DNA from: Methanoculleus sp. | Lineage (GTDB): Archaea > Halobacteriota > Methanomicrobia > Methanomicrobiales > Methanoculleaceae | NCBI RefSeq assembly: GCF_030019085.1 | Contig: NZ_JASEFJ010000010.1 | Location: 1-64,000 of the forward strand | Direction of reading: 5' to 3' | DNA length: 64,000 nucleotides | Shown here: positions 44,401 to 60,934 of the stretch, piece by piece | Numbering within the stretch: the stretch's first letter is position 1 | How the letters are laid out: every line of letters starts with the position of its first letter | Made by a program: the position numbers and the translations under genes | Notes under the pieces: generated by a model | Seen by the model: only the letters and a program-made list of their open reading frames with translations | What the model was told of the DNA's origin: nothing | The model's database searches: none

Positions 44401-45045
44401 CTGATCCTGGAGAGCATGGAGAGTGCCGCTGGTTCTATCCGGATTCCGTTCATTATTGCCATGACGCAACTGTGGGTGGCCGGTTTGCTCTACTCACTCT
44501 ACCGCGCAACCGGCAACTCCTCCGCCAGGGAACGCGCAACCGCTATCGCTTCCTCAATCGAGGATGAGCGAATCCGCTATATTCTCACGGTTCAGGTGGA
44601 TCAGATCGCTCCCGGGTCATGGGAGGGCACCGTCTATGGCAGGATCCTGGAGTTCCGCGAGCGGTTACGGCGTGGCAACTGCACCACAAAAGATCTGGTG
44701 GCACTCGACCGCGCAGTAGGCGCAACACACGACCGGCTGAAGAGGGTGATCTACTACACCGAGGTCTATGTGTTCGCCCGTGACGCCGGACAGCATGAGA
44801 TAGCGGAGAGGATGCTGGAATGTGCGCTAAAGGAGGCTGGCGGGATCAGACCTCTCTCACGACGAGCGATCGCGCTAGGAGATATGGCCTGCCGTCTCCA
44901 TTCAGCGCGCTACGAGGACCACGCAGGCGATCTCCTGGATCTGGCAGTGGGCGTGGTGGTGAACATCCGTGACCAGGCAACAAGAGAATCGATATATGAC
45001 GAACTGGATATGTCCATAAGGATCATTCAGGAGTACTGGCTGTGA
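41488..45045 (+). CDS. Giant helical-repeat protein, 1185 residues
   Basis: An all-helical soluble protein without a signal peptide or membrane segment. It consists of degenerate units of about 45 residues that recall HEAT/TPR solenoids: a pattern such as R-x-x-IL-x-x-I-x-x-x-L-x-x-x-G, then a variable loop, then L-x-x-x-L-x-x-L-x-x-I recurs (for example RSEILSEIIPHLIRYGEE and LARAIATVGMVSKDRGLLI). No catalytic motif is seen. It is translationally coupled to an acylphosphatase: the GTG of that gene lies in its last codons. A scaffold role is inferred. The family is not recognised. Confidence 0.8.
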   Translation: MDRSIPIEEMVKSAITSGDPEELEEAVREISTTRTRKGKRQFYAQVNAAITGVAFERGEPDILNLVTEPTEEEVTEASRRAITRYIDSADEAWISAIFTLVGKLNRKGQQSEILARISGELVLRGIDTGKEQYIERALNTLEAISIRKYRSEILSEIIPHLIRYGEEHRNVEILQHVLAMLPEISTLSERAKLSAGLARAIATVGMVSKDRGLLIQGLSIAAGIEQKIQRTGTISDIVNGAWRSPLKAEIADIANILDSIREIRQERMAEILAILTVGLLDHQKDRKDTYRRLTELADKKPWAGQVIAHELLAKAERSGDYWFLEKMFEFVARHGESTPPPIEDIVNAGIAIATRSGNPAVLSDIVPLVDEYSDGAKAARLYHQISETLYRVDDFRQAVLVLKKAGNPQGNSLLFQTAIKLVIEAIRRDEIEFIREILLAGEETRIADTLIQQALTDFCRKCSLDEVAGHIPAIKELAALHQSQDTLLLECSIVLLDRGFIKDKGPAALLDLLSQITDHGLREEAFSKIAIDMARIGADRNDRHLLQASIALACKIIEQKRLASTLAGIANQVTALAVQEAYPDLLRGMRILLTSLLAQDLCMIAMESIIQGLITYGVEHGSLQALDESARILVETHDPSLQHLFATLIEGYVRVGCIRIVDNRSSARPALFEGVLDPFETALSLLKTRTPDAAFQIRIGDCIDIMLEQMQESRDAVLVIPMALFSLEIENEYERTAMIQRILTPFTERTQEFDSADPYEATAYLLEGLNGATASLPVLDLMHRLFEHTSDLYARYSGIYRVASAYLVLDERERAESTIRRLHETINETPDPAVRAIMLSDLAGLMAGIDPREARDYLDEAEDMVGSVGEEREDLVRKHLIHAFREICAANGEEKDLQWAIEQAQRIGNPVDYVDALSVVYDMADEPAARKEILSIISQTVAGIPSVYVRLPLLFHVARFAETSGDEDAIELILESMESAAGSIRIPFIIAMTQLWVAGLLYSLYRATGNSSARERATAIASSIEDERIRYILTVQVDQIAPGSWEGTVYGRILEFRERLRRGNCTTKDLVALDRAVGATHDRLKRVIYYTEVYVFARDAGQHEIAERMLECALKEAGGIRPLSRRAIALGDMACRLHSARYEDHAGDLLDLAVGVVVNIRDQATRESIYDELDMSIRIIQEYWL

Positions 45046-45314
45046 AGACGATCGAGATAAGTGTTGCAGGACGGGTTCAGGGCGTTGGGTTTCGCGCATG
45101 CGTCAAAAGGATCGCTACAAATCTCGGTGTCGTGGGTGAGGTGATGAACCTGCCGGACGGCAGGGTTCGCGTTATCGCAACCGCCGATCCAGGTATCCTG
45201 GATAAGTTCGTCTCCATGCTCTACAGTTGCCCGCATGTTATAATCCGTGAGATCGTCCAGCGGGAGATCCCTCTCATCAACTTCTCAGAGTTCAGCATCC
45301 TGCGGAGCGGTTAA
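45042..45314 (+). CDS. acyP: Acylphosphatase
   Basis: A 90-residue small alpha/beta protein with the catalytic signature GRVQGVGFRACV (phosphate loop and Arg) and the Asn-containing motif VMNLPDGRVRV. Acylphosphatases hydrolyse carboxyl-phosphate mixed anhydrides. The start is a GTG overlapping the stop of the giant repeat protein by 4 bases, an unusual partner. The end overlaps the convergent cas1 by 4 bases. Confidence 0.92.
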   Translation: MKTIEISVAGRVQGVGFRACVKRIATNLGVVGEVMNLPDGRVRVIATADPGILDKFVSMLYSCPHVIIREIVQREIPLINFSEFSILRSG

Positions 45315-46249
45315 TACCAGTAGAGCACCTGAAATTCAGCGTTTGAGAGTAGAGCGTCGCGCAGGATGCGTACCTGGGCGTCAAGACGGTTCTGGTCGAT
45401 GGACTCGCGGAGCGCTGCGGTCAGCAGGTTCACAATAGCAGGATCGAGGTAACATCTCTTCTCCCCGCACTCGTAATCGTCAGTGGACACACCCTCCCTT
45501 GCGAACCGAAGTACGATACGGTCTACCATCGAGGCTTTCTGCGGTTCTATGAGGTCATACACAAGACCCCCGGGGCCTTCATGGAGCATACCGCGGTCGG
45601 GATTGAGATGTGCGCCGACCACCGAGACGCAGCAGTTTCCATACAGCATCGCGTAGCCGAGCGAGAACATGGTGTTGACAGGGTCGGTGTGCGGAGGTTT
45701 TGTTCTGCGCCGGAACCCGAGTTCTGGCGGGATTGTGCGGGCCAGGATCTCATAGTACATGTCGGCGGTCAGGCGTGAGAGTCTCCGAAGTTCTTCCATC
45801 GTGACCGAGACCTCGAGTTCCTCCCTGACCTGGTGAAGGAACTCGAGTTCCCCGGAATAAAAGATCGTCTCCCCACGGTGGTCAGAGAGTTCTCCAAGCA
45901 GAAGGAGCCTGGACTGGAGGGCTGCCCGGGCGAGTGGCTGGGCGAACCTGTGTGGCGCGGCCCGTTCCTGCGCAAGCCTTACCTCCTCGTCCTGGCGGTA
46001 GCCGTATGGGTAGAGACATCCGACGGGTGTGCCGTCGATATCGAAGAATGTGATGGCAGCGCCGGATTTGAGGAGATTTGTCACCGCGGAGGTATGGAGG
46101 GTATGGCCGCCGACTATGAGGAGGTGTTTCACTTTGTCGAGGGGGTAACGCCAGGTCTCGCTCCCACGTGATATAATGACCTCCTGTGCCGTTGCCTTTA
46201 TGTGCCCTCCATATCCGAAGACAGGGAGCCAGGTTCCCGTTGCTGCCAT
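45311..46249 (-). CDS. cas1: Stand-alone Cas1 homologue
   Basis: A 312-residue Cas1-fold protein: an N-terminal beta domain (about 1-95; LLIVGGHTLHTSAVTNLL) and a helical catalytic domain with RRTKPPHTDPVNTMFSLGYA, RGMLHEGPGG and VYDLIEPQKASMVDRIVL. His223, Asp232 and Glu235 align with the metal-binding residues of Cas1. The position of the first catalytic Glu (normally in an L-E-G motif about 65 residues before the His) reads LSRLTADMYY, so Ser158 seems to replace it. No other cas gene, CRISPR array or casposon polymerase lies in the window. Its role is unknown. Confidence 0.88.
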   Translation of the reverse strand: MAATGTWLPVFGYGGHIKATAQEVIISRGSETWRYPLDKVKHLLIVGGHTLHTSAVTNLLKSGAAITFFDIDGTPVGCLYPYGYRQDEEVRLAQERAAPHRFAQPLARAALQSRLLLLGELSDHRGETIFYSGELEFLHQVREELEVSVTMEELRRLSRLTADMYYEILARTIPPELGFRRRTKPPHTDPVNTMFSLGYAMLYGNCCVSVVGAHLNPDRGMLHEGPGGLVYDLIEPQKASMVDRIVLRFAREGVSTDDYECGEKRCYLDPAIVNLLTAALRESIDQNRLDAQVRILRDALLSNAEFQVLYWY

Positions 46250-46472
46250 CCAGTCACTCCGGAAATGAGTATTGGAGTGTTTTTGATGATTAATGCATCG
46301 ATTGGGCGGATATGGTGAGGTCTTTACGATGCTGGAGGGGACCCTGGTATAATCTGGTTAACTTATGCGGGTTAATTAACTGTAAAATATTTACATGGCC
46401 CGGTTCCAGTTTAAATCGTTACTTTTCTGGAATGGGTCCAGGAAAGGGGATGACTCAAAAAGGGTTGATTCC

Positions 46473-49400
46473 ATGAATGAAAAGGCGAAAAAGATTCAGT
46501 ACGCTCTTTTCGTACTGCTGTTATGCTCGCTGCTGGTACTGCCGGCAGTCGGGGAGACTCTCCCGGGTGTGAGCGCGAGCCCCGGAGATGGTATCGCGGA
46601 TGCCACTCTGATTTCTGAAGTGGCGCCAGACGACGACCTGACGGTAACTACCGACGGGGAACCTGGGGTAACACCTGAGGAAGAACCGCTGGTGACACCG
46701 GATGAAGAATCCGCCGGTATCCTCTCTGACGAGACCGTTCTCTTCAAAGGAACAGTTGCGCTGGATGAGGGCACTTTCGAGTGCACAGCATACAACTCCG
46801 GAGAGACCTACACCGTCAGCAACCGGACACCTCTTGGCGCCCTCCAGAAGGTCTCGGAACTGAAGGGCTTCACCTACAACGTCACCGACAAGCGATGGGC
46901 ATATGATGAAGTCCTCCTGCTCGATGACATCGATGGATACCTTTACATCAAAAGCAAGGCCAAGTGGGCGTGTTACGTCAACGGCGACCTGAAGGATGGA
47001 TATGGCAACCACGATGGCGGCATCAACGTCGTGGCACTTGCCGAAGGCGATCAGGTCGTCTTCTGCTACGGCGGTGACCCGACGCCGGAGGATGCAACAG
47101 CGCTGATCACGATCACTGTGGGTCTCGAGGACTCGGATGAGACACCGGTGGAACCAGCCACATGGAGCGTCGCTCTTATCGGTGCACGGACGGAGGAGGT
47201 CGACCAGGACTACTTTGAGGACGGTGTGGCCTGCGGACATGCCGCCACATACACCGACGGTAACGGTGATGTGTGGAGCGGAATGCCTCTCTGGTACCTC
47301 ATTGGCCTAGTCGACGACGATGTAAGGCACGGTTCCGGCGCCTTCAACGACGACCTCGCTGCGCAGGGTTACTCGATCAAGGTCACCTCAATCGACAATT
47401 ACGATATCAACTTTGATAGCGCAAGCGTCGCGAGGAACAACGGGATAATCGTCGCAAACACCTTAAACGGCGAGCCACTCCCTGCAACCATCGGCGATAA
47501 GAACAAACCCTGCTGGCCGCTCCGGATCGTCGGTCCGAGCGTCGGTTCAGGGCAGTTGATCGGTGGCATCACCACGATCGAACTCATAGGCCTCCCTGAA
47601 CCTTCCGAAGGCTGGGAGATCACGCTTGTGGGCGCTTTCAACCGGACGCTCACCCAGGCAGAGTTCGAGGAGGGTGTTGCATGTCACGGCAAGAGTTACA
47701 CCGATGACAAAGATCAGGTCTGGACCGGTATCCCGCTCTGGTACCTGGTAGCCGTTGTCGACGACGTGGCGACCGGGAATCACTGGGCGTTGAACGATAC
47801 ACGAGCGGCCGCGGGCTACACCGTGCGTGTGAGTGCGATTGATGGTTTCAACGCCACCTTCAGCAGCGCCGATATCGCCCGTAACGATTCGTTCATCGTT
47901 GCAAATAAGATGAACGCAGCCCCGCTCACCGAGGATAACGGTGCACCCCTGAAACTTGTCGGGAAGGGCGTGACCTCAGGGAAACAGCGGGTCGGCAATA
48001 TCGCCACGATCTCCCTTGAGGGGCTCCCGGATGAGATCACGGAGTCGGAGTGGACGCTCAGTCTTGAGGGACCAAAGATCACCGATCTCCTGACAAAGGA
48101 AGAGTTCGAGGAGTGCGGCTACCACGCCGTGACGTATAACGATGGTGTCAGCACATGGAGCGGCGTCCCGTTGAGGGTCCTCTGTGGCTGGGTCGACGAC
48201 GATGTCATGCACGGTTCTGGAGCCTTCAACGTCCCCCTTGCAGAGACCGGCTACACCGTGATCGTCTCCTCCGGCGGGGATAACCCCTACAGCAAGGAGT
48301 TCTCAAGCCAGGATATTCTGGCAAAACCGAACAACTACATCGTTGCAAACAAGGTCAACGGCACCCCGATCACCGGGAACGCCTATCCGCTCCAGCTGGT
48401 CGGCGCGGGGGTTACAGGGAGCCTGAGCGTGAAGAACGTCCAGCGGATCCAGCTCGTCGACTTCCAGGAGCCCGAGGAGCCGCCATCCATACATATCGTC
48501 CGCTACGCCTCCGACGAAGTGACCGTTCTGAACGAGACGACAAAGACCATCCAGTGGATGGAGGAGAACCTGGAGGTATACGGCGCACCCAACGGTGTTA
48601 GACTCGGGTTCCAGGGCCCCACCTTCGATCCAGACGACCTCTGGAACCCGGATGAGAACATCAACGTGGACCCGGCCAAAGTCGATGACGTAGTGAAAGG
48701 AACGGCGATCCGCGACCTCTGTGACCTGGTTGGTGGTATCCCAGTTGGTGGTGAGATCGAACTTATCGCCTCTGATGGTTACAGTGTCAAACTCAACTAC
48801 ACCAACATCTACGAACCGCTCGAACGCCAGGGTGAGGCCATCGTCGCGTGGTGGGCAGAGGGACGGGGGTATGTCCCCGACTACCGTGACGGCCCGCGCC
48901 TCTTCTTCAACACGCCCGACGGGATCTTTGGAAACGATGACATGCGGACATGCCTGGCTGAAGAATACTGGCACTACTACTGGGCTGACGGTATCCAGTA
49001 CCCATCGGCTGCCGGTCTTTCCAACAAGAACATCGCAACCATTGCGATCAAACCCGGCGCACGAGAGGACTGGACGCTTCTCCTGAGAGGTGCAATCACC
49101 GATAACATCAGTCGCTCCTACTTCGAGTCGGGCAAGGCCTGCGCGTTGGGCGGGCACGGTGCCACCTGGACGGATGATGAGGGACATGTCTGGTCAGGGA
49201 TGCCGCTCTGGCTCCTATGCGGCTGGGTTGACGATGCAAACAAGCACGATTACGGCACGGATCCATTCCGTGACGATCTCGCGGCGGCGGGTTACAACGT
49301 GACCGTCATCGACTACGGCAAGGACGGCATAAAGGGCACTGATGACGACTTCTCCGCCACATTCAACAGTTCGTTTGTGGCGCGGAACAACAACATCATC

Positions 49401-50078
49401 GTCGCCGACGAGATCGACGGCGCTCCACTACCGAAGGACGGCAAGACCTGGCCGCTCAAACTCGTCGGCTCCGCCTTGACCTCCAACAAGCAGAGGGTAG
49501 GGAGCATCGATGAGATCGAGCTTACCGGCGTGCCGATCGTCGAGGAACCCTCTGAAGCCGATGCTACGATCAGCCTTGAAGAGGGCTGGAACTTCGTCTC
49601 CACGCCGAAACGTCTCATGGATGGTGCAAACACGTTCGCGATCTTCTACGACAACGTTGGTACCGCCGGCCACTCGATCCTGCTCTATGACGGGATCACG
49701 CAGGAGTGGAAAGCGGCGGCCTCGGCCGATGCCTTCAAGCCGCTTGACGGCGTCTGGGTCTATGCAAACGAGGCCTGCACCGTCCAGCTGACATTCGCTC
49801 AGGGTGGTCCGCAGGTCCCGCCCACAAAGGACCTTGGCATGGGCTGGAACGCGATCGGGTTCACGGACACCGTTCCCGAGTCCGCTGCAACCACCCTGCT
49901 CTCTCTGGGTGATCACTGGACCACCCTGATCGGGTTTGATGCGGAGAACCAGGAGTATGAGGTCTCTATCATCCGGGGTGCAAGCGGCCGACATGGAGAT
50001 GAACGCACGATGCAGCCGATGCAGGGTTACTGGGTCTACATGACCGATGCCGACACGCTCGCTGCCATCGGGGCCTGA
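46473..50078 (+). CDS. Giant exported protein with SUOX-fold-like repeats
   Basis: A 1201-residue exported protein (signal IQYALFVLLLCSLLVLPAVG). After an acidic stretch comes a DUF4430-like domain (about 46740-47110). Four repeated modules of about 140 residues follow, starting near 47160, 47610, 48045 and 49068. Each has a Cys/His segment (ACGHAATYTD, ACHGKSYTD, CGYHAVTYND, GGHGATWTD), W-x-G-x-P-L, VDDD-type acidic loops, and IVAN-x-x-NG-x-P. This resembles the Oxidored_molyb/sulfite-oxidase fold. A different module (about 48481-49060) is shared with two later proteins. The C-terminus is a beta domain with EEGWNFVSTP and GMGWNAIGF. ATG 46473 fits the signal peptide; the frame opens at 46395. 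Confidence 0.82.
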   Translation: MNEKAKKIQYALFVLLLCSLLVLPAVGETLPGVSASPGDGIADATLISEVAPDDDLTVTTDGEPGVTPEEEPLVTPDEESAGILSDETVLFKGTVALDEGTFECTAYNSGETYTVSNRTPLGALQKVSELKGFTYNVTDKRWAYDEVLLLDDIDGYLYIKSKAKWACYVNGDLKDGYGNHDGGINVVALAEGDQVVFCYGGDPTPEDATALITITVGLEDSDETPVEPATWSVALIGARTEEVDQDYFEDGVACGHAATYTDGNGDVWSGMPLWYLIGLVDDDVRHGSGAFNDDLAAQGYSIKVTSIDNYDINFDSASVARNNGIIVANTLNGEPLPATIGDKNKPCWPLRIVGPSVGSGQLIGGITTIELIGLPEPSEGWEITLVGAFNRTLTQAEFEEGVACHGKSYTDDKDQVWTGIPLWYLVAVVDDVATGNHWALNDTRAAAGYTVRVSAIDGFNATFSSADIARNDSFIVANKMNAAPLTEDNGAPLKLVGKGVTSGKQRVGNIATISLEGLPDEITESEWTLSLEGPKITDLLTKEEFEECGYHAVTYNDGVSTWSGVPLRVLCGWVDDDVMHGSGAFNVPLAETGYTVIVSSGGDNPYSKEFSSQDILAKPNNYIVANKVNGTPITGNAYPLQLVGAGVTGSLSVKNVQRIQLVDFQEPEEPPSIHIVRYASDEVTVLNETTKTIQWMEENLEVYGAPNGVRLGFQGPTFDPDDLWNPDENINVDPAKVDDVVKGTAIRDLCDLVGGIPVGGEIELIASDGYSVKLNYTNIYEPLERQGEAIVAWWAEGRGYVPDYRDGPRLFFNTPDGIFGNDDMRTCLAEEYWHYYWADGIQYPSAAGLSNKNIATIAIKPGAREDWTLLLRGAITDNISRSYFESGKACALGGHGATWTDDEGHVWSGMPLWLLCGWVDDANKHDYGTDPFRDDLAAAGYNVTVIDYGKDGIKGTDDDFSATFNSSFVARNNNIIVADEIDGAPLPKDGKTWPLKLVGSALTSNKQRVGSIDEIELTGVPIVEEPSEADATISLEEGWNFVSTPKRLMDGANTFAIFYDNVGTAGHSILLYDGITQEWKAAASADAFKPLDGVWVYANEACTVQLTFAQGGPQVPPTKDLGMGWNAIGFTDTVPESAATTLLSLGDHWTTLIGFDAENQEYEVSIIRGASGRHGDERTMQPMQGYWVYMTDADTLAAIGA

Positions 50079-50080
50079 GG

Positions 50081-51193
50081 ATGAAGGGTATGTGGTTGAA
50101 GCAACACGGTATCGTGCTCCTGCTCCTCCTCGGCCTTGTCGCCGGGGCAGCGGCAGCAACGGAGGGGTCTCCCCCCGTTCTGCCGCACGAGTTCTACGGG
50201 AACGTGATGGTAGGCGGATCCGCGGCACCGGTAGGGACCGAGATCACCGCCACGATCGATGGTGTGGAGTGCGGTTCTGTCGTGATTGTGGAACCGGGAC
50301 GCTACGGTGGTCCCGACCCGAGCATCGGGAACCGACTGATCGTGACGGCAACCGCGGACCAGGAAGGAGCGCCGATAACCTTCCTGGTCAACGGCAGGGT
50401 TGCCGGCGAGACCGCAAACTTCACCTCCGGTGCGGTAACGGCCCTTGATCTGAGCGTTGCCGCGGAGGCCACACCCACCACGCCACCGGCAGGCGGTGGC
50501 GGTGGCGGGAGCACCGGCGGCGGAGGAGGCGGGGGTGGGAGCAGCACCTCCGGTTCTTCTGGTTCAGAGGTCGTCTACGAACCCGGGGCCCCCATCGCCC
50601 CCCTGGCCTTCACAGAAGAGGCCACCCTGACCGCATCGAGCGACGGCGTGGTGCTAGAACCGGTGTTGGTCAGGACGGAGGACGGGGTTGCCGCATTGAC
50701 GATACCTGAAGGCACAACCGCCCTTGACGCGGCCGGCAACCCTCTCACCGCGGTCATCTGCACAAAGGCTGACCCGGCCGAAGTCCCGCCGGCACCACCT
50801 GGAGCGAGTATCGCAATCGCCCTCTCATGCGGCCCTGACGGTGCAACCTTCGACCCGCCGATCAGCCTCACCTATACCCTCTCTGAGGACGAGTGGGCGC
50901 GGATCGACGAAGGTCTCAGGCCAGTGGTCATGTGGTACAACCCCGAGAGCGGCGAATGGCAGGAGATAGCGGCTACGGTCGATCCTGCGACCCGAACCAT
51001 CACGGCCAAGGTCTCGCATTTCAGCATATTCGCGCTTGCGTGGACATCCCCGGAGGCTACACCGGCACCTGAAACGGAGGCTACACCTGTATCTGAAGAA
51101 GAACCGGCTGCGTTTCCGATCGGGGTGATCGTTACCATCGTTATCATCCTGGTCATCGTGGTTGCAGCATACGTCCTGATGAGGAGGAGATAG
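50081..51193 (+). CDS. Mucin-like membrane-anchored surface protein
   Basis: A 370-residue exported protein: signal peptide (IVLLLLLGLVAGAAAA), a beta domain with HEFYGNVMVGGSAAPVGTEI, a Gly/Ser linker around residues 130-165, a second beta-rich region (about 175-330; ISLTYTLSEDEWARI) and a C-terminal anchor helix ending MRRR after a Thr/Pro/Glu stretch. It starts two bases after the giant exported protein, so both are probably co-translated. No enzyme motif is visible. Confidence 0.78.
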   Translation: MKGMWLKQHGIVLLLLLGLVAGAAAATEGSPPVLPHEFYGNVMVGGSAAPVGTEITATIDGVECGSVVIVEPGRYGGPDPSIGNRLIVTATADQEGAPITFLVNGRVAGETANFTSGAVTALDLSVAAEATPTTPPAGGGGGGSTGGGGGGGGSSTSGSSGSEVVYEPGAPIAPLAFTEEATLTASSDGVVLEPVLVRTEDGVAALTIPEGTTALDAAGNPLTAVICTKADPAEVPPAPPGASIAIALSCGPDGATFDPPISLTYTLSEDEWARIDEGLRPVVMWYNPESGEWQEIAATVDPATRTITAKVSHFSIFALAWTSPEATPAPETEATPVSEEEPAAFPIGVIVTIVIILVIVVAAYVLMRRR

Positions 51194-51239
51194 CCAGAAG
51201 GTTATCTGTATGATAGTTTGAGTTTAAGGACGGAGAATT

Positions 51240-54137
51240 ATGATACCTGAACATTCAGTCCGGTACCAGGCGATCCTTGCGCTCTGTCTGTTGCTGGCAC
51301 TGGCAGCACCTGCTGCCATGGCAGCGACAACCGAACTTCATGTCGTCAGGTATGCAGCAGATGGCGTGACCATCTTAAACGAGACAACGGTCGACTACCG
51401 ATGGCTTGAGTCAAACCTCCCTGTTCAGGGAGATGGTGTGACCCACTACTACCATCAGGGACCCGTATTTGAGGGCGACCCCTGGAACCCGGAAGAGGAT
51501 ACAAACGTCCTCGAGAAGGATATGGGCGCGGTGAAGGGAACCGACCTCAAGGATATCTGTGACCTCGTCGGCGGGATGAAGGAAGGAGAGACTGTCAGGA
51601 TCAAGGCATCGGACGGACTCTCAAGGGTGTTTCCCTACCGTAACGTCTACGAACCTGAATCCCGACAGGGTCCGATGGTGATAACCTGGTATCACGACAA
51701 AGACGGATACGTCCCCGATTACCGTTCGGGCATGCGTCTTGTCTTCTTTGCGGATACCTCGACAAACCCCTACGGTGTCCATGCGTTCGGTGTCTGGGAC
51801 ATGCACGAGTGCTTTGACGAGGAGTACTGGTACTTCTACAACGGCAAGTATCCAACAACAACCGGGCTTTCCGTCCAGTACATAAGCGAGATCATCATCT
51901 ACAGCGAGGAAGAGCCCACAGGGAGTATCCACGTGACCTCAACTCCATCGGGGGCCAAAATCTTTCTCGATGATGAAGATACCGGGCATGAAACCCCGCA
52001 CACCCTCGTCGGCCTTGAGGTGGGGAGCCACTCCGTCGTGGTCGAGAAGGAGGGTTACATCCGACCGGATGAGAGATGGGTTATGGTCGCAGCAAACAGG
52101 GTTGAGGAGGTTGAGTTCAACCTCACCCCCATCACCGGGAGCATCGCAGTCTCTTCCGTTCCAAGCAACGCCAGCATCATCCTTGACGGAGAGGTGACCG
52201 GATTGTTCACCGACACGATCCTTGATGAGGTGCCGGTCGGTGAGCACACGATCGAACTTGTGCTGCCTGGTTACTGGAACGTCAGCCGGACGGTCGTTGT
52301 TGAGGAGGACGAATGCAGCATTCTGGATCTCGTTCTCACCTCCATAAACGAGAACGTGCCTGAGACCCTCTCGGAGACAGCGATGAATGCAACGCCGGGT
52401 AACGCCACCCTGTTTTCACTGCTCGGGCCGTTTGAGTTTCGCGGCAGGCTTGACGTTCTCCCGGCAAACACCTCTGCGACCTCCAACGGGAGCGTTGTTA
52501 GTTACCACCTTCCCGACGGGGCGAAGGGACGCTGTTACCTCTACATTGATAACAGCAGCGCCGGTGAACCGGAGTTTGAGGGGGTCGCCCTGGATCGGCG
52601 ATACGCCACCGCCACGGCCGCGACTTTTGCTGCAAACCTCACCGGCGACAACGCCACGTTTACCGTGCATTGCCCGCCAGGGATCACCGCCGATGGTCTC
52701 CTCCTTACAGCGGAAATGGACGAGAACGCATCCTCCTCCATCATCTGCTGGATAGGTGAGGGCGTTATCATCCTGGATGAGGCGACCTCTTTAAGGTTTG
52801 AACCGATGCCTGAAACCTCCAGGGTCTCCGATGCCAGGTTGCTGATCGTGGGCAGCGGGAATATCACTGCCTCGTTCAACGGCCACAGCATAACCGGGAT
52901 CCCGCAAGACGAACCCGTTGTCACGGAGTATGACGTGCTGTCCTGTCTGAATGGTTCATCAAACGAACTCCGCCTGGAAGGGGAGGGTGCGGTGATCAGG
53001 AACATCATCCTCTGCCTGACAACCGCCGGGGTGACCTCTGGACCTCCGCCAGGATCGGGAGAGACTCCGAAGTCTTTGATCGAGAGGATACTCGACTTCC
53101 TGTATAGGATCTTCGGGTTCTCGGTCGAACCGGAGCAGAACACGACCACCGTCCCTGAGGTTGAGGAGACCCACGTCCCCGAAGAGACCCGACCAACCCC
53201 GGTTGCGACACCCACCTATGGCCGGGTCGAGAAGAACCACTCGGGCGGGGTCTATGTCACCTCCTACCCGCCCGGGATGACGATCATACTCGACAACAAG
53301 AACCTCTTACGCCAGACACCCCGGGTGATTTACGGTCTCCGTGAAGGGCTGCACACCATCCAGGTCGAGGCGAGCAAAGGTTCTGCAGGAGAGGTGGATC
53401 CCGGTTACCGGTTCGAGACCGTCCAGACCTGGGTCTACCCGGACGCTATCACGCCCGTCCATCTCGACGGCGTGGCGCCATCGTATAAAAAGACCGTCCG
53501 TGTCGAGTCGGAGGTCTACAGCGGAGAGAGGTTCACCTTAAACGGACTCTTCCCCGCCGGCACCATACCGGGCGAGGGAGAGATTGAGGGCGGCGGTGTG
53601 GCCTGGGCAACCGTCCTCCACGACGGGCAATACCTCTCGTATAACATGCCTTCGTCTGTTGAGAACGGCATGAAATTCGTGATCGAACCCTGGAAGGGCG
53701 AGACCGTATCCCTCAATGTCAGGTCGAACCCACCTGGTGCCATCGTTATCATCGATGGTTTCCCAACAGGCGAGAGAACCCCCTGCCGGATAGACGGTCT
53801 CTCCCCCGGGCGTCACCGCATTCTGGTCTCAATGCCGGGCTACCTCCCCGCCGAAGAGGTGATCACGATACCGGAAGGCTCGAGAACCGGTGGCGTCATA
53901 ACCTGCACACTCAAGGAATACACCAGCGGCGATCTCCTGGTCGAGAGTAACGTCCCGGACGCCCGGATATACCTCTACGGCCGCTACACAGGTGAGAAGA
54001 CGCCGCACACCTTTACCGGGATGAGTATCGGCACCTACGAGGTCAGGGTAGTCTCGGAGAACGATTCCAGAACCATGGAGGACGTCCTGGTGAAACCCGG
54101 GACAACGACCCGCTGCCTGGTAACTCTGAAGGAGTGA
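51240..54137 (+). CDS. Exported PEGA-domain protein with shared N-terminal module
   Basis: A 965-residue exported protein. After the signal peptide, residues about 27-215 form the module shared with 46473 and 55317 (LHVVRYAADGVTILNETTVD, YYHQGPVFEGDPWNP, GYVPDYRSGMRLVFFAD). Two PEGA domains follow (STPSGAKIFLDDEDTG; SVPSNASIILDGEVTG), then a DUF3344-like beta region (FEFRGRLDVLPAN to about residue 590), a Pro/Thr linker and three more PEGA-like units near the C-terminus. No anchor helix is seen at the end. PEGA domains are common in surface proteins and bind unknown ligands. Confidence 0.8.
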   Translation: MIPEHSVRYQAILALCLLLALAAPAAMAATTELHVVRYAADGVTILNETTVDYRWLESNLPVQGDGVTHYYHQGPVFEGDPWNPEEDTNVLEKDMGAVKGTDLKDICDLVGGMKEGETVRIKASDGLSRVFPYRNVYEPESRQGPMVITWYHDKDGYVPDYRSGMRLVFFADTSTNPYGVHAFGVWDMHECFDEEYWYFYNGKYPTTTGLSVQYISEIIIYSEEEPTGSIHVTSTPSGAKIFLDDEDTGHETPHTLVGLEVGSHSVVVEKEGYIRPDERWVMVAANRVEEVEFNLTPITGSIAVSSVPSNASIILDGEVTGLFTDTILDEVPVGEHTIELVLPGYWNVSRTVVVEEDECSILDLVLTSINENVPETLSETAMNATPGNATLFSLLGPFEFRGRLDVLPANTSATSNGSVVSYHLPDGAKGRCYLYIDNSSAGEPEFEGVALDRRYATATAATFAANLTGDNATFTVHCPPGITADGLLLTAEMDENASSSIICWIGEGVIILDEATSLRFEPMPETSRVSDARLLIVGSGNITASFNGHSITGIPQDEPVVTEYDVLSCLNGSSNELRLEGEGAVIRNIILCLTTAGVTSGPPPGSGETPKSLIERILDFLYRIFGFSVEPEQNTTTVPEVEETHVPEETRPTPVATPTYGRVEKNHSGGVYVTSYPPGMTIILDNKNLLRQTPRVIYGLREGLHTIQVEASKGSAGEVDPGYRFETVQTWVYPDAITPVHLDGVAPSYKKTVRVESEVYSGERFTLNGLFPAGTIPGEGEIEGGGVAWATVLHDGQYLSYNMPSSVENGMKFVIEPWKGETVSLNVRSNPPGAIVIIDGFPTGERTPCRIDGLSPGRHRILVSMPGYLPAEEVITIPEGSRTGGVITCTLKEYTSGDLLVESNVPDARIYLYGRYTGEKTPHTFTGMSIGTYEVRVVSENDSRTMEDVLVKPGTTTRCLVTLKE

Positions 54138-54144
54138 ATGGGAG

Positions 54145-55320
54145 ATGAAACGTTACTGTAATCTACTTGCAACTGTGACGGTTGCGCTGTTACTCATTCA
54201 GACAGTGTCGGCAGGGATCGTATGGGGCCCCTATGTCACCAGCACCGCGAGCGACTCGGCAGTGGTCTCCTGGAAGGCGACCGGTGAGACCGGTGGATGG
54301 GTGGAGTACACCCCGGTTGAGGGCGGCGAGACCCGCCGTGTCCCATCATCCGGGACTGAGAAAGGCATCCAGCACGCCCATCTCAGCGAACTCTCCCCGG
54401 CAACGACCTACCATTATCGTGTGGTCAGCGGGAACGAGACAACAGGAGACTGCAGGTTCAGGACGTTCGGTGACCCGGAGTTTACCTGTATCATATACGG
54501 TGACACCCGTGGCCAGAAACCTCTCTTCACCCAGACCGAGAGGCACCGCCTTGTGGCAGAGAGGATCGCCGAAGAGGAAGAGATCCTCTTTCTTATCCAC
54601 ACGGGGGATTTCGTCTGCGATGACTCAGAGTGGGATGAGTTCTTCGCTGTGGCAGGACCGGTGCTCAGAAACACAACCCTGGTACCGGTGGCAGGCAACC
54701 ATGACGGCACGGCGGAGGAGTTCACCAGGATCTTTGCCCTCCCTCCATACTACTCGTTTGACGCCGGGAGCCTCCACGTGACCGTCCTCGACAGCAATGA
54801 TCGCGCCTGGGCGGATATGCCGACCCAGACGGCCTGGCTCAAGGAAGACCTCAGATCCCCGCTGCCACGAAAGATCGTGGCGTTCCACCACCCGCCTTTC
54901 AGCGCCGACCGTAGCCATCCCGGCGGTGATCTGGCGATCAGGGGCGAGTGGGCTGACATCTTCTCAGAGAACGGTGTTGACGCGGTCTTCAGCGCGCACA
55001 CCCACGCTTACGAGCGCTACAGCGTGAACGGGACAGACTACTTTGTTATCGGCTGTGGTGGCGCCCCCCTCTACCCGCTTGCGGATGAGAAGCCTCAAGG
55101 GTATCGGATGGGGTGCGAGGGGACGCTCGGGTATCTCCGGGCGAGAGTCAGCCCTGAATCGATCATCATGGATATGATACCGGTTGCAAGGGTTATCGAG
55201 GATGAGGTTAAGCTCTACCCGCGGGGGACTGTCATTGAGACCGTCCGCCTCCCGCCCGGGTGGTGGAGTGTCTTCCCATCAGTTGCAGGTGTGACGAGAC
55301 TACCAGAATTATGGAGATGA
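54145..55320 (+). CDS. Exported purple-acid-phosphatase-like metallophosphoesterase
   Basis: A 391-residue exported protein with a signal peptide (LLATVTVALLLIQTVSA), an N-terminal fibronectin-like domain (about 25-110; WGPYVTSTASDSAVVSW) and a metallophosphoesterase domain with all ligand motifs: YGDTRG, HTGDF, GNHDG, FHHPPFS and SAHTHAYERY. The plan is that of purple acid phosphatases, suggesting an extracellular phosphoesterase. It lies seven bases after the PEGA gene and overlaps the next start, so it belongs to the same operon. Confidence 0.9.
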   Translation: MKRYCNLLATVTVALLLIQTVSAGIVWGPYVTSTASDSAVVSWKATGETGGWVEYTPVEGGETRRVPSSGTEKGIQHAHLSELSPATTYHYRVVSGNETTGDCRFRTFGDPEFTCIIYGDTRGQKPLFTQTERHRLVAERIAEEEEILFLIHTGDFVCDDSEWDEFFAVAGPVLRNTTLVPVAGNHDGTAEEFTRIFALPPYYSFDAGSLHVTVLDSNDRAWADMPTQTAWLKEDLRSPLPRKIVAFHHPPFSADRSHPGGDLAIRGEWADIFSENGVDAVFSAHTHAYERYSVNGTDYFVIGCGGAPLYPLADEKPQGYRMGCEGTLGYLRARVSPESIIMDMIPVARVIEDEVKLYPRGTVIETVRLPPGWWSVFPSVAGVTRLPELWR

Positions 55321-56156
55321 TGGTTTTGCATGCAGAGATCAGACGGATTCTGCTCGCGCTCCTCTGCGTGAGCGTGGTATTGATTGCCGCCGTATCGGCG
55401 GCACCGACGACCGAACTGCGGATAGTAAAGATCGGAGACGATGGTAAGACCATCCTGAACGAGACAACGGTTGACTATCGCTGGATGGAAGAGAACCTCC
55501 CGGTCCTTGGGGACGGGGTGACCCGCTACTATCATCAGGGCCCAGTATTTGAGGGGGACAAGTGGGACCCGAACGAGACGACCAACTTCAAGGACAGGGG
55601 GGCCGTTAAGGGGACGAACCTTCGTGACCTTGTCGAACTGGTCGGCGGCGCAAACCCCGGTGATGAGATCATGGTAAAGGCGGTCGACGGCTACCACGTC
55701 GAGTTCCCATACGAGAACATCTACGAACCCGATCCCCGTCAGGGGCCAATAGGGATCTGCTGGTACAACGGCGCCGATCCTGAGGTCGGCGAGAGACAGG
55801 GGGTTGGCTACGTTCCCGACTACTACACAGGGATGAGGATCGTCTTCTTTGCGGACAACTCCACCAACCCTGAAGGGCTTCATGTCTACGGGAATTGGGA
55901 TATGCATGAGACGCTCCCGGCTGCCGCCCAGCACTTCTACGACGGTCTATACCCCTCGACCAGCGGTCTTACGGTGAAGTGGGTGGACGAGATCAGGGTT
56001 TACACCGGTGGATACCAGGGTGAGAGAGGAGCACTGGCGGGATCCCTCACCACCCCGGCGGGGACGGTCAAACCGACAGAGGCCCCGCTCTCCTTGCTGG
56101 TGACCGCTCTCGCGGTCGCTGGAGCAGCAATCCTCTGCGCCAGGAGAGGAGCGTGA
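55317..56156 (+). CDS. Small anchored protein with shared surface module
   Basis: A 279-residue protein with a signal peptide (ILLALLCVSVVLIAAVSA), one copy of the module seen in 46473 and 51240 (LRIVKIGDDGKTILNETTVD, YYHQGPVFEGDKWDP, GYVPDYYTGMRIVFFAD, NWDMHETLP) and a C-terminal anchor helix ending ARRGA. GTNLRDLVELVGG and KAVDGYHVEFPYENIYEP recall part of the Oxidored_molyb fold. A GGAG site precedes two adjacent ATG codons (55317, 55320). It overlaps both neighbours by 4 bases. Confidence 0.8.
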   Translation: MMVLHAEIRRILLALLCVSVVLIAAVSAAPTTELRIVKIGDDGKTILNETTVDYRWMEENLPVLGDGVTRYYHQGPVFEGDKWDPNETTNFKDRGAVKGTNLRDLVELVGGANPGDEIMVKAVDGYHVEFPYENIYEPDPRQGPIGICWYNGADPEVGERQGVGYVPDYYTGMRIVFFADNSTNPEGLHVYGNWDMHETLPAAAQHFYDGLYPSTSGLTVKWVDEIRVYTGGYQGERGALAGSLTTPAGTVKPTEAPLSLLVTALAVAGAAILCARRGA

Positions 56157-56725
56157 TTCCGGTGCGCCGCCGGGTATACCCCGCCCTCCTCCTGCTCTCC
56201 ATCGGCCTTCTGGCTCTCGCGGCCGGATGCCTCGGTACGACGACCGGCGGTGACGACTACCCGGCCTGGAACCTGACAATTATCGGCGATACCGAGATTG
56301 TGCTCAGCCTCGATGAGATCAGGGCTATGGACGCCGTCGAGGGTTACGGCTACGCGGTCTCCACTGTCGGAATCAGATACGGCCCGAACCGTTACCGGGG
56401 TGTGCTCCTGACCGACCTGCTCGATATGGTGGGCGGGGTCGGGGAGGACGATCTCGTCTACGTCTCAGCGCCGGACGGCTACATGTGGGTCTTTGATGGC
56501 GTTCAGGTGAGGGGTGTGGAACTCTTCACGTTCGATGAGAACCTCCACGAGATCCCTTCACCGCCGCTCCAGGTCATCCTGGCCTACGACTGTGACGGCA
56601 AACCCCTGGCCTACGACAACGGCGGTCCGCTCAGGCTGGTTGTCATCTCAGAAACGCCAGATGTTATCACCGAGGGAAGCCCCTGGGTGAAGTGGGTAGA
56701 GAAGATCGAGGTTAAGAGGCGATGA
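56153..56725 (+). CDS. Lipoprotein with Oxidored_molyb-like domain
   Basis: A 190-residue lipoprotein: hydrophobic leader with lipobox LALAAGC, then a single domain with SLDEIRAMDAVEGYGYAV, RGVLLTDLLDMVGG, YVSAPDGYMWVF and ILAYDCDGKPLAYDNGGPLR. This order matches the Oxidored_molyb (sulfite-oxidase-like) fold, but the Cys that binds molybdopterin in true enzymes is not at its usual place. It overlaps both neighbours by 4 bases and directly precedes the tungstate-binding protein. Enzymatic activity is doubtful; ligand binding is possible. Confidence 0.82.
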   Translation: MIPVRRRVYPALLLLSIGLLALAAGCLGTTTGGDDYPAWNLTIIGDTEIVLSLDEIRAMDAVEGYGYAVSTVGIRYGPNRYRGVLLTDLLDMVGGVGEDDLVYVSAPDGYMWVFDGVQVRGVELFTFDENLHEIPSPPLQVILAYDCDGKPLAYDNGGPLRLVVISETPDVITEGSPWVKWVEKIEVKRR

Positions 56726-57747
56726 CCCGCGGTGTAGCCCTCCTGGCGGTGATCGGTCTCCTCGTCATCCTTGCATCCACTGCAGGGTGCATGGGTTCCG
56801 ATCAGGAACGCACAGTCCTCAAGGTTGTCCCGGCCGGGAGCCTGCTCTACCCTTTTGAGCAGATTGAGGCCGAGTTTGAGAGTCAGCACCCCGAAATCGA
56901 CGTCCAGCTCGAGGGGCACGGGAGTATCCAGGCCATTCGACAGGTGACAGACCTCGGGAGACCCATAGATGTCGTCGCGGTCGCAGATGCATCCCTCATC
57001 CCGGATATGATGTACATCCCGATGGGCGAGGGGGAGGAGAACTACACCGACTGGTACATCCCTTTTGCCGAGAACGAGATCGTGATCGCCTACACCGACC
57101 GGAGTAAGGGCGCAGACGAGATCACGCCTGAGAACTGGTATCACATCCTGGCCAGGCCGGATGTGCGGGTGGGTTTCTCAAATCCGATGCTCGATTCCTG
57201 CGGTTACCGGGCGCTGATGGTGACAGCGCTTGCAGAGGATTACTACAACGAACCAGGGCTCTTTGAGGCGATCATCGGTGGTGCATTTAACCCCCCGATC
57301 AGACCTTTCGTCTCCGACGGGATGACCACGATCACCCTTCCCGAACGGATGAGACCCGCAACCGAGAAGGTCGCTATACGGGACGGGAGCATCTACCTCC
57401 TCTCGCTCCTTGATGCCGGCGGGATCGACTACGCTTTTGAGTATCGGAGCGTCGCTGAGGAACACGGACTCCACTGGATCGATCTTCCGCCTGAGATCGA
57501 TCTCGGCTCAGCGGAACACGCCGGTTACTACAGGACGGTGCGCGTGAACCTGGGGTTCCAGCGGTTCCAGTCCATCGGTAGCGAGCGGATCGGCCAGCCG
57601 ATAGTCTACGCAATCACCGTGCCGCGCAACGCCCCACACCCAAAAGAGGCGCATATGTTTGTGGAGTTCGTTCTTGAGGCGTTCCGCGAGGAGAGACCCG
57701 GATGGCCCGACCCCCTCAGCCCGGAGATGAGGGCTGTCAGCGTGTAG
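56722..57747 (+). CDS. wtpA: WtpA-type tungstate/molybdate-binding lipoprotein
   Basis: A 341-residue periplasmic-binding-type lipoprotein (lipobox ILASTAGC). Family motifs are PAGSLLYPFEQIEAEFE, PIDVVAVADASLIPDMM, WYIPFAENEIVIAYTDRSK, SNPMLDSCGYRALMV and DYAFEYRSVA. It would bind tungstate or molybdate for an ABC importer. Two positions differ from the common motif as I recall it (GHGS for aGS, and SNPMLDSCGYR for a DPN..DPCGYR-type segment). No permease or ATPase gene is next to it: the following operon encodes CoA ligases. It closes the surface operon. Confidence 0.88.
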   Translation: MTRGVALLAVIGLLVILASTAGCMGSDQERTVLKVVPAGSLLYPFEQIEAEFESQHPEIDVQLEGHGSIQAIRQVTDLGRPIDVVAVADASLIPDMMYIPMGEGEENYTDWYIPFAENEIVIAYTDRSKGADEITPENWYHILARPDVRVGFSNPMLDSCGYRALMVTALAEDYYNEPGLFEAIIGGAFNPPIRPFVSDGMTTITLPERMRPATEKVAIRDGSIYLLSLLDAGGIDYAFEYRSVAEEHGLHWIDLPPEIDLGSAEHAGYYRTVRVNLGFQRFQSIGSERIGQPIVYAITVPRNAPHPKEAHMFVEFVLEAFREERPGWPDPLSPEMRAVSV

Positions 57748-57837: not shown

Positions 57838-57904
57838 GAGTAACAGAGTCGGGATGAAGGGGGAGAACCCTTTCTGCCGGCAAAAGACCGATGGGATACT
57901 AACT

Positions 57905-59197
57905 ATGTTCTGGAACAGGGCGATGGAGACGATCCGTGGCGACGAGCTTGCGGATCTCCAGCTTAAACGGCTGAAGTGGTCACTGCATCAGGCCGGTAAG
58001 ACCGGGCTATACCAGAGAAAGATGAGAGAGGCGGGCGTCTCGCCAGACGACATAAAGACGCTTGAGGACGTGGAGAGACTTCCTTTAACCACAAAGAAGG
58101 ATCTCCAGGCCGGTTACCCGTTCGGGCTCTTTGCCGTCCCCTTGAGAGAGGTCGTCCGGATCCACACCACCTCAGGGACGACCGGGAAACCTACCGTTGT
58201 CGGCTACACCCGAAATGACCTGGATAACTGGTCGGAACTGATCGCGCGGAACATGACGATGATCGGGCTGGGGGAAGACGACATCTTTCAGAATGCGGTA
58301 AATTACGGGCTCTTCACGGGAGGACTCGGGTTCCACTACGGTGCTGAGAAGATCGGTATGACCGTGATCCCGAGCGCGACCGGGAACACCCGCCGTCAGA
58401 TCGAGATGATCGAAGACTTCGGGGTGACCGTCATCCACTGCACCCCGAGTTATGCCCTCCATCTCGCCGAGGTGGCGGAATCTATGGGGAAGAGTCTGGA
58501 TTCTCTAAGGACCGGGATATTTGGGGCGGAACCCTGGTCGGAGAGCATGCGAAGCGAACTCGAACGCCGTCTTGGAGTGAAGGCCTACGACAGTTACGGG
58601 CTCTCCGAGATGTATGGTCCCGGTGTGGCGTTTGAGTGCCCGGAGAGGGATGGGCTTCATATCTGGCATGACTCTTACCTGGTGGAGATCGTCGATCCCG
58701 CGACGGGTGAACGTCTCGCTCCAGGGGAACGCGGCGAACTAGTCATAACGCCGCTTGTCAAGGAGGCTATGCCACTCATCCGTTACCGCACTGGCGACAT
58801 TACCCGGTTGATGGATGAGGACGGGTGCGTCTGCGGCCGCGGGCAGAAGATCGAGCGGATCACCGGCCGGTGCGACGATATGATGGTCATCCGGGGGATC
58901 AACGTCTTTCCGTCCCAGATCGAGCACGTGCTGCGATCACTTCCGGAGGTCGGGGACCAGTTCATGGTATATATCGACCGCGTCAAACATCTTGATGAGA
59001 TGACGATCGAGGTAGAGATGAGCAAGGCTGCGTTCTCCGGCGAACTCCAGGACCTGGCCCGGATGCAGAAGAAAATCTCGGCCGAACTTCAGAACACGCT
59101 AGGGCTGCGAACGGCGGTGAGACTGGTGGAACCGGGGTCTCTGCCACGGTTCGAAGGAAAGGCAAGACATGTCATAGACCGGCGGGGGGATGCCTGA
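57905..59197 (+). CDS. paaK: Phenylacetate-CoA ligase-like enzyme 1
   Basis: A 430-residue AMP-forming ligase of the PaaK type. The adenylation motifs are HTTSGTTGKPTVVGYT, SYGLSEMYGPG and RYRTGD, and the C-terminal domain has IRGINVFPSQIE. The family activates arylacetates such as phenylacetate or indoleacetate; in methanogens this salvages aromatic acids for amino acid synthesis with indolepyruvate oxidoreductase. The substrate here is inferred. The ATG at 57905 gives the family start; the frame opens at 57854. It overlaps the second ligase by 8 bases. Confidence 0.92.
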   Translation: MFWNRAMETIRGDELADLQLKRLKWSLHQAGKTGLYQRKMREAGVSPDDIKTLEDVERLPLTTKKDLQAGYPFGLFAVPLREVVRIHTTSGTTGKPTVVGYTRNDLDNWSELIARNMTMIGLGEDDIFQNAVNYGLFTGGLGFHYGAEKIGMTVIPSATGNTRRQIEMIEDFGVTVIHCTPSYALHLAEVAESMGKSLDSLRTGIFGAEPWSESMRSELERRLGVKAYDSYGLSEMYGPGVAFECPERDGLHIWHDSYLVEIVDPATGERLAPGERGELVITPLVKEAMPLIRYRTGDITRLMDEDGCVCGRGQKIERITGRCDDMMVIRGINVFPSQIEHVLRSLPEVGDQFMVYIDRVKHLDEMTIEVEMSKAAFSGELQDLARMQKKISAELQNTLGLRTAVRLVEPGSLPRFEGKARHVIDRRGDA

Positions 59198-60500
59198 GAT
59201 GCCGCCCTGGAACCCGCGGATCGAGGAGATGCCGATTGACGAACTCCAGCGGCTTCAGTTCAAACTCCTCAAATCCCAGATATACCGGCTTTACAGTTTC
59301 AACGAGTTCTACAAGCGCCGAATGAAGGAGCACGGCGTCCACCCTGACGATATCAGGACGCTTGGAGATCTTGCGAAACTTCCGTTCATGTACAAGTCAG
59401 ACCTGCGCGATGGTTACCCTGACAGGATATTCACCGCCGAACGGAGCGAACTGGTCAGGTACCACGTTTCATCCGGGACGACGGGAAAACCAACCGTTGT
59501 TGGGTATACGGAGCGCGATATCGCGAACTGGAGCGAGTCTCTTGCGCGGGCGTTCTCCTCCTGCGGTCTTGGCCGTGGAGACGTCGTCCAGGTGAGTTAC
59601 GGCTACGGGCTCTTCACCGGGGGGCTCGGTGCACACTACGGTGCCGAGCGTCTCGGGGCGACAGTCCTCCCGACAAGCGTCGGGAACACCGAGCGCCAGG
59701 TGGAACTGATGCAGGATCTCCACGTCACCGCCATCGCCTGTACCCCATCCTACCTCCTCCATATCGCGGAGGTGGCGGAGAAGATGGGCGTCTCGATACG
59801 GAACGATACCGACCTCCGGATGGGTTTCCTGGGCGCCGAGGCCTGGTCGGAGCAGATGCGAACGCGGATCCAGGACTGGCTCGGGATCCGCGCTTACGAC
59901 ATCTACGGGACAAGCGAACTCTCAGGGCCGATGTTCACCGAGTGCAGCGAGCAGAAAGGGATCCATGTCTGGGGAGACCTGGCGCTGCTGGAGGTTGTTG
60001 ACCCCGCTACTGGCGAGGTTCTCGAGCCCGGCGAGGAGGGGGAACTCACCGTCACGATGCTCCAGAAAGAGGCGCTCCCAATGGTCCGATACCGGACAGG
60101 CGACCTCACCGCCATCGATACGGATCCCTGCACCTGTGGTCGGACGCATCCACGTATCGGCCGGATACGCGGCAGGGTTGACGATATGCTGATCATCCGG
60201 GGGATAAACGTCTTCCCATCACAGGTGGAACATACATTGCTCGGGATACCGGATGTCGGGAAACATTTCCAGATCGTCGTCGACCGGAAGGGTGCGCTCG
60301 ACTCGATGCTCGTGAGGGTGGAGGTGAGCGAGGAGGCATTCTCCGACAAAATTCCTGATCTCATGGAGATCAAGAGGAAGGTGGAGCACCGTCTCCGGAG
60401 TTCGCTCAACGTGAGCGTGGAGGTTGAACTTGTTGAACCCGGGAGTCTTCCGCGGTTTGAGGGCAAATCCAGAAAGGTTATAGACAGGAGGTCGTTGTAA
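59190..60500 (+). CDS. Phenylacetate-CoA ligase-like enzyme 2
   Basis: A 436-residue paralogue of the preceding ligase with the same motif order: HVSSGTTGKPTVVGYTERD, YDIYGTSELSGP, RYRTGDL and IRGINVFPSQVE. A CTCGRTHPRIGR segment replaces the CVCGRGQKIERI of the first copy. The two differ widely enough to suggest different arylacetate substrates. An ATG at 59199 is an alternative start. It overlaps the ACT gene by one base. Confidence 0.92.
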   Translation: MPEMPPWNPRIEEMPIDELQRLQFKLLKSQIYRLYSFNEFYKRRMKEHGVHPDDIRTLGDLAKLPFMYKSDLRDGYPDRIFTAERSELVRYHVSSGTTGKPTVVGYTERDIANWSESLARAFSSCGLGRGDVVQVSYGYGLFTGGLGAHYGAERLGATVLPTSVGNTERQVELMQDLHVTAIACTPSYLLHIAEVAEKMGVSIRNDTDLRMGFLGAEAWSEQMRTRIQDWLGIRAYDIYGTSELSGPMFTECSEQKGIHVWGDLALLEVVDPATGEVLEPGEEGELTVTMLQKEALPMVRYRTGDLTAIDTDPCTCGRTHPRIGRIRGRVDDMLIIRGINVFPSQVEHTLLGIPDVGKHFQIVVDRKGALDSMLVRVEVSEEAFSDKIPDLMEIKRKVEHRLRSSLNVSVEVELVEPGSLPRFEGKSRKVIDRRSL

Positions 60501-60934
60501 TGGAGAAGTCATCTTATATAATCAAACAGATCTCGGTCTTCTCGGAGAACCGGCCGGGACGGCTTGCGGCAATCGCTGCTGCGCTGCGAGATGCGGAGAT
60601 AAACATCCTGGCGTTCAGCATCGCTGAGGCGGACGGGTTCGGGGTTGTAAGGGCGCTTGTAGACCGCCCGGACGATGCCTACCGGACGTTGACCGATCTC
60701 GGGTTTCGCGTCTCGTTTACAGATGTCATCGGGGTGAAGATGCGCGATGAGCCTGGTGGGCTCTCAGAGATAGCCTCGGTGCTCGGGGATGCCGGGATCA
60801 ACATCGAGTACGCCTACGCCTACTCGGGGAAGGACGCAGCCGTCCTGATCCTTCGCGTGGATCAGGTCGAGGATGCCGTCCGAAAGATCCTGGACCACGG
60901 CGGGGAGCTCCTGAGACTTCCAATCAAGTCGTGA
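60500..60934 (+). CDS. Tandem ACT-domain protein
   Basis: A 144-residue protein with two ACT domains: about 8-70 (QISVFSENRPGRLAAIAAAL) and 78-140 (VKMRDEPGGLSEIASVLGDA). Such proteins often follow aryl-CoA ligase genes and are thought to sense amino acids. It probably tunes the two ligases according to aromatic amino acid supply, which is inference. It begins at the last base of the second ligase. Confidence 0.92.
   Translation: MEKSSYIIKQISVFSENRPGRLAAIAAALRDAEINILAFSIAEADGFGVVRALVDRPDDAYRTLTDLGFRVSFTDVIGVKMRDEPGGLSEIASVLGDAGINIEYAYAYSGKDAAVLILRVDQVEDAVRKILDHGGELLRLPIKS

Follow-up and report, generated by a model that had tools for sequence, protein, structure and literature searches.

A conserved archaeal surface gene cluster with SUOX-fold modules that probably forms the outer part of a WtpABC-type tungstate/molybdate importer

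Import of tungstate and molybdate through the ABC system WtpABC has been described for Pyrococcus furiosus and Archaeoglobus fulgidus, with a lipoprotein, WtpA, whose binding residues include two Ser, an Asp and a Tyr. A further residue, AF E218, is the second metal ligand of WtpA and completes the octahedral site. In Pyrococcus WtpA, selectivity for tungstate is set by the Asp (PMC10221389). The SUOX fold is shared by sulfite oxidase, YedY (MsrP) and PruR, the last of which lacks the Mo-binding Cys and binds small pterins (PMC13259868). Here, we analyzed a gene cluster that combines a WtpA with many SUOX-fold modules, located at positions 46473–57747 of a 64,000-nucleotide stretch (the window) of a Methanoculleus sp. 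contig. Whereas the WtpABC importer itself is known, the extracellular apparatus studied here probably has not been described, and a search of open-licence papers found no description of the cluster; new are the tie to WtpABC, a core of three genes (E-F-G), the modules' SUOX fold and the wide distribution of the cluster.

The cluster consists of seven genes (A to G) that all lie on the + strand, with gaps of 2, 46 and 7 bases followed by three 4-base overlaps. All seven products begin with a hydrophobic segment and are predicted to be secreted or lipoproteins, with the lipoboxes AAGC in F and TAGC in G and an additional C-terminal hydrophobic segment in B and E. An earlier note on this DNA had described the same co-directional arrangement and export signals, which the coordinates and N-terminal segments confirm, and domain searches agree with it on the repeated Oxidored_molyb-like modules, the PEGA domains, the purple-acid-phosphatase-like enzyme and WtpA.

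Gene A (46473–50078; 1201 aa) encodes a secreted multidomain protein with a DUF4430-like domain (46758–47093), three modules of one kind, S1 (47154–47594, 47610–48032 and 48048–48467), one of a second kind, S2 (48486–49058), a fourth and last S1 module (49059–49529) and two C-terminal repeats (49560–50075). The product of gene B (50081–51193; 370 aa), the position of which is kept within the genus, carries a signal segment and a C-terminal transmembrane segment ending in MRRR, features that predict a membrane-anchored surface protein. Gene C (51240–54137; 965 aa) encodes a secreted protein with an S2 module (51330–51905), PEGA domains, a middle domain and more PEGA domains (E 3.6e-57, five stretches). 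The secreted product of gene D (54145–55320; 391 aa) resembles purple acid phosphatases in its N-terminal domain and metal-binding motifs, but it belongs to a transport-linked surface cluster; it matches Metallophos (E 1.6e-15), Pur_ac_phosph_N (E 6.8e-10) and purple acid phosphatases in the PDB (E 7e-10), and the motif set GDTRG (119), GDFVCD (154), GNHD (184), HHPPF (248) and AHTH (284) is present. The three core genes follow: E (55317–56156; 279 aa), with a signal segment, one S2 module (55410–56012) and a C-terminal transmembrane segment; F (56153–56725; 190 aa), a lipoprotein with a single Oxidored_molyb (SUOX-fold) domain (PF00174, E 3.1e-14); and G (56722–57747; 341 aa), a lipoprotein WtpA of a distinct subfamily.

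Two kinds of module thus recur in the cluster: S1, with four copies in A and a relative in F, and S2, the shared second module of the earlier note, found once each in A, C and E. PF00174 was matched in A and F, and Oxidored_molyb in 18 of 34 S1 members, while no Pfam family was matched by S2. In profile comparisons, F was linked to both modules, to S2 with a probability of 96 over 42 columns and to S1 with a probability of 95 over 124 columns; the direct link between S2 and S1 was weak. The S2-S1 pair of gene A, built from 33 relatives, gave an AlphaFold model with a mean pLDDT of 91, and PDB matches 1 to 18 of this pair, searched as one unit and assigned to the pair as a whole, all have the SUOX fold. 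They comprise sulfite oxidases and other Mo enzymes related to them (best E 8e-5) as well as YedY and PruR (TM-score 0.61–0.72 by target length). A model of S2 alone, built from a shallow alignment, also had PruR proteins on top, but with a pLDDT of 65 and Foldseek E values of 0.03 or worse it is weak and serves as support only. The F family profile matched plant sulfite oxidase 1ogp (E 2.8e-7), the alignable part being the C-terminal half, and a sequence search of S1 against the PDB gave no significant match. The repeated modules are therefore, as modelled, SUOX folds; the S2-S1 matches rule out an unrelated beta sandwich, and the comparison with sulfite oxidase that the earlier note had proposed comes out in favor of its Oxidored_molyb assignment.

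The molybdopterin binding to which the earlier note had linked this fold fares less well. Of the two Cys in F, position 26 belongs to the lipobox and position 147 is not conserved, and no invariant Cys was found in the F-domain and S2 alignments; with F left without a usable Cys and S2 without an invariant one, binding of molybdopterin by the cluster modules is doubtful. A sulfite-oxidase-like enzyme is ruled out for F and S2 by the same missing Cys, a ruling that does not cover S1. Unlike sulfite oxidase and YedY, moreover, the cluster shows no gene for an electron-transfer partner. In S1, Cys is present in 29 of 34 modules and a C-x0-5-H motif in 28 of 34 (e.g., 47154–47594 and 49059–49529), a possible metal site; Cys and His alike are invariant in the last S1 module among 33 sequences, one of them from a bacterium. 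PruR, with the pterin-binding residues Trp160 and Tyr104, is comparable as an extracytoplasmic SUOX fold that, like F and S2, lacks the Mo-binding Cys, and it is among the top fold matches. However, PruR is a single domain that goes with DcpA-type regulators, whereas the cluster has many modules and an ABC binding protein, and no DcpA or sensor-kinase gene was found among its seven genes.

Gene G passes the curated cut-off of the WtpA family TIGR03730 (351 bits against 242.75, E 3.6e-105). Like the described WtpA proteins it is a lipoprotein with the binding residues conserved (S40, S68, D158 and Y241), and its D158, which corresponds to the selectivity Asp (AF D153, Pf D160), is kept in all 102 cluster-type sequences. 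In contrast, the AF Glu218 position, identified by alignment and a numbering check, is occupied by Ser223 in G and by Ser in 97 of 102 cluster-type sequences, as well as in 22 of the 25 canonical copies from the order; E240, one residue before the Tyr, is Glu in most cluster-type copies and in all canonical copies of the order. A WtpA search across 61 genomes of the order separated two classes, one that mostly adjoins wtpB and never F, and another that adjoins F in 27 of 28 copies, the remaining copy being cut by a contig end. In a tree, the cluster-type WtpAs fall on one side of a branch (SH-aLRT 99), apart from the canonical copies and three solved WtpAs. Single lipoproteins of ~640 aa that fuse TupA-like (named by eye) and WtpA-like binding proteins were also observed (L102:9348-11267, L137:6851-8800 and L140:6846-8795).

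About 20 relatives belonging to several families share all or most of the order A-B-C-D-E-F-G, and the arrangement is conserved across Methanomicrobiales, where the earlier note had proposed to look for it; the full order is found in the genus and, with differing domain numbers, in other families. Judged from these comparisons, the recurrence goes beyond chance. Querying public genomes with the S2 module of E yielded 72 loci, with archaeal loci from Methanomicrobiales, Methanosarcinales and ANME relatives, Methanophagales and Methanosaeta and bacterial records from Peptococcaceae, Bacillota, Anaerolineales and Dehalococcoidia; two more records, labelled Clostridiaceae and Omnitrophota, also appeared and may be mis-binned. 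E adjoins F in 70 of the 70 loci that contain F, in which E is present by construction since it was the query, and G adjoins 67 of the 70 F genes, an F-G link that is independent of the query because it was also recovered starting from WtpA. The E-F and F-G gene overlaps are kept at most loci, and gene D is missing from some clusters. Gene neighborhoods thus define E-F-G, i.e., an SUOX module, an SUOX lipoprotein and a WtpA, as the conserved core.

The earlier note had regarded WtpA as lacking its ABC partners, which holds within the window. It does not hold for the genome, since a wtpB-wtpC pair is encoded elsewhere (from C6:25361 onward), adjoining a Mot1-like gene, and wtpBC lies directly downstream of the cluster in many relatives; an orphan WtpA is accordingly rejected at the level of the whole genome. 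At this locus wtpA itself is absent, whereas it is found there in other members of the genus. The split between G and wtpBC, which sets this genome apart from the described systems, was found in six genomes of the genus in which the only full WtpA lies in the cluster (this one, G000, and G006, G009, G015, G021 and G023), and the WtpB orthologues of genomes with the split arrangement are 80–96% identical. Where enough sequence was available, wtpB directly follows G in 21 of 59 loci, usually with wtpC next, and such joined loci include archaeal and four bacterial contigs; NCBIfam best matches of the downstream genes were WtpB in L179 and L184 and WtpC in L184. Among 41 genomes, this WtpB occurs in 21 of the 22 with the cluster against 8 of the 19 without it (Fisher p 3e-4, which ignores shared ancestry and is therefore only a guide), and all eight cluster-less genomes with this WtpB have a canonical wtpA. 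The one exception (G013) has the cluster and no detected wtpB in an assembly that is 80% complete. The WtpB and WtpC of this genome score below their equivalog cut-offs (230 vs 340 and 362 vs 440 bits, respectively), and the genome also encodes TupABC-like and ModABC-like systems.

Upstream of gene A lies a tandem element, GTTAACTTA-N5-GTTAATTAA (46357–46379, +), a candidate operator or promoter element. Its strict pattern occurs 11 times in 2.09 Mb of related loci, against 0 expected from shuffled sequence, with the copies lying 5' of the first gene of the cluster; in Methanocalculus, it separates the cluster from a divergent canonical wtpA. This placement suggests a dedicated promoter or operator of the cluster. 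A wider W/Mo regulon was rejected, as the strict motif occurs only once in the whole genome and is absent at wtpBC. Directly after the tandem element, a dyad, TGTAAA-N3-TTTACA (46381–46395), was read from the sequence, and variants (TGTAA...TTACA) precede gene A in L033, L036 and L048. The start of gene A at 46473 agrees with the conserved start region of relatives; an in-frame ATG is also present at 46395, among the upstream motifs. Divergent from gene A is an apparently lone Cas1 gene (45311–46249, −; PF01867, E 1e-49) that keeps its place across the genus and is replaced there by canonical wtpA in Methanocalculus. Further upstream, a 1185-aa alpha-repeat protein (41488–45045, +; weak TPR_12) is conserved in the genus. 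On the other side (57854–60934, +) lie two neighboring genes that resemble phenylacetate-CoA ligases and one for an ACT-domain-like protein, all identified by eye, and the ligase-like pair trails the cluster across the genus. On a Methanophagales contig, a gene that appears MobB-like by eye (L135:713-1138) lies upstream of the cluster.

We consider it probable, with a good deal of room for doubt, that the cluster encodes accessory extracellular components of a WtpABC-type tungstate/molybdate importer. This reading is supported by the score of G above the WtpA cut-off with the selectivity Asp conserved, the separate WtpA branch, the position of F beside cluster-type WtpA, the joining of G to wtpB, the wtpBC loci without wtpA, the co-occurrence of the cluster with WtpB and the E-F and F-G overlaps. 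It is weakened by the TupABC-like and ModABC-like systems, the sub-cut-off scores of WtpB and WtpC, the Ser in place of Glu218 and the G013 genome. In such an importer, G would act as the binding protein, anchored in the membrane, and deliver the oxyanion, presumably tungstate or molybdate, to the WtpB and WtpC encoded elsewhere in the genome, a pairing to which the evidence points indirectly. Its constant partners would be the lipoprotein F and the membrane-anchored S2 module of E, which, usually together with giant surface proteins, distinguish the cluster from the described WtpABC systems. A, B and C would be the larger surface proteins, two of which (A and C) contain additional modules of these kinds; the SUOX modules may capture or concentrate tungsten or molybdenum species at the surface and pass them to G, and the secreted metallophosphoesterase D might, as a guess, free the metal from a phosphorylated ligand. 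A more specific form, in which the surface SUOX arrays bind complexed W or Mo, e.g., a pterin complex, and relay it via F to WtpA, is speculative and on balance rather unlikely.

Other readings account for part of these data. The SUOX modules might bind pterins as PruR does, the complex then scavenging or sensing a released metal-pterin cofactor, such as tungstopterin, from which WtpA takes the metal. In both models, PruR proteins rank among the best fold matches; PruR binds small pterins and has no Mo-binding Cys (PMC13259868), a residue that F lacks as well, and the MobB-like gene of L135 lies near the cluster; yet the PruR matches speak for the fold and not the ligand, and the cluster has no pterin transporter or PruR-type regulator, and we regard this explanation as unlikely. 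Import of another oxyanion, or of an organophosphate-derived anion that phosphoesterase D would make available, could use the same architecture and would fit the intact metallophosphoesterase motif set and the replaced Glu218. It is nevertheless the least probable of the explanations considered, given that some clusters lack D, that the selectivity Asp is conserved and that the best family matches of the downstream transporter are WtpB and WtpC.

A structural or adhesive surface complex, with the WtpA-fold lipoprotein co-opted for a role outside transport, would account for the very large repeat proteins, their PEGA and DUF4430-like domains and the many genomes in which wtpBC is not adjacent. 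We nonetheless hold it to be quite improbable: wtpBC directly adjoins the cluster in contigs of Methanomicrobiales, of Methanosarcinales type and of bacteria, six genus genomes lack a separate wtpA, and the binding-site residues of G are kept. The earlier note had left the choice between a metal- or cofactor-related and an adhesion complex open; with a conserved gene order and modules of the SUOX fold, its picture of a conserved, extracellular, metal-related assembly stands, whereas adhesion gained no specific support.

CO2-reducing methanogenesis depends on tungsten or molybdenum for its first step, catalyzed by formylmethanofuran dehydrogenase. To our knowledge, hardly anything has been described of how such archaea collect these scarce metals outside the cell. 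The cluster also suggests a role as non-enzymatic binding modules for many proteins that are annotated as molybdopterin oxidoreductases, and an SUOX-array relay, if true, would represent receptor-and-relay capture of a metal cofactor in cells without an outer membrane. The co-occurrence of these surface proteins with one branch of WtpA in archaea and some bacteria makes them probably the outer part of a W/Mo uptake machine, and a surface apparatus tied to that branch in methanogens, ANME relatives and a few bacteria offers a concrete, testable gene set.
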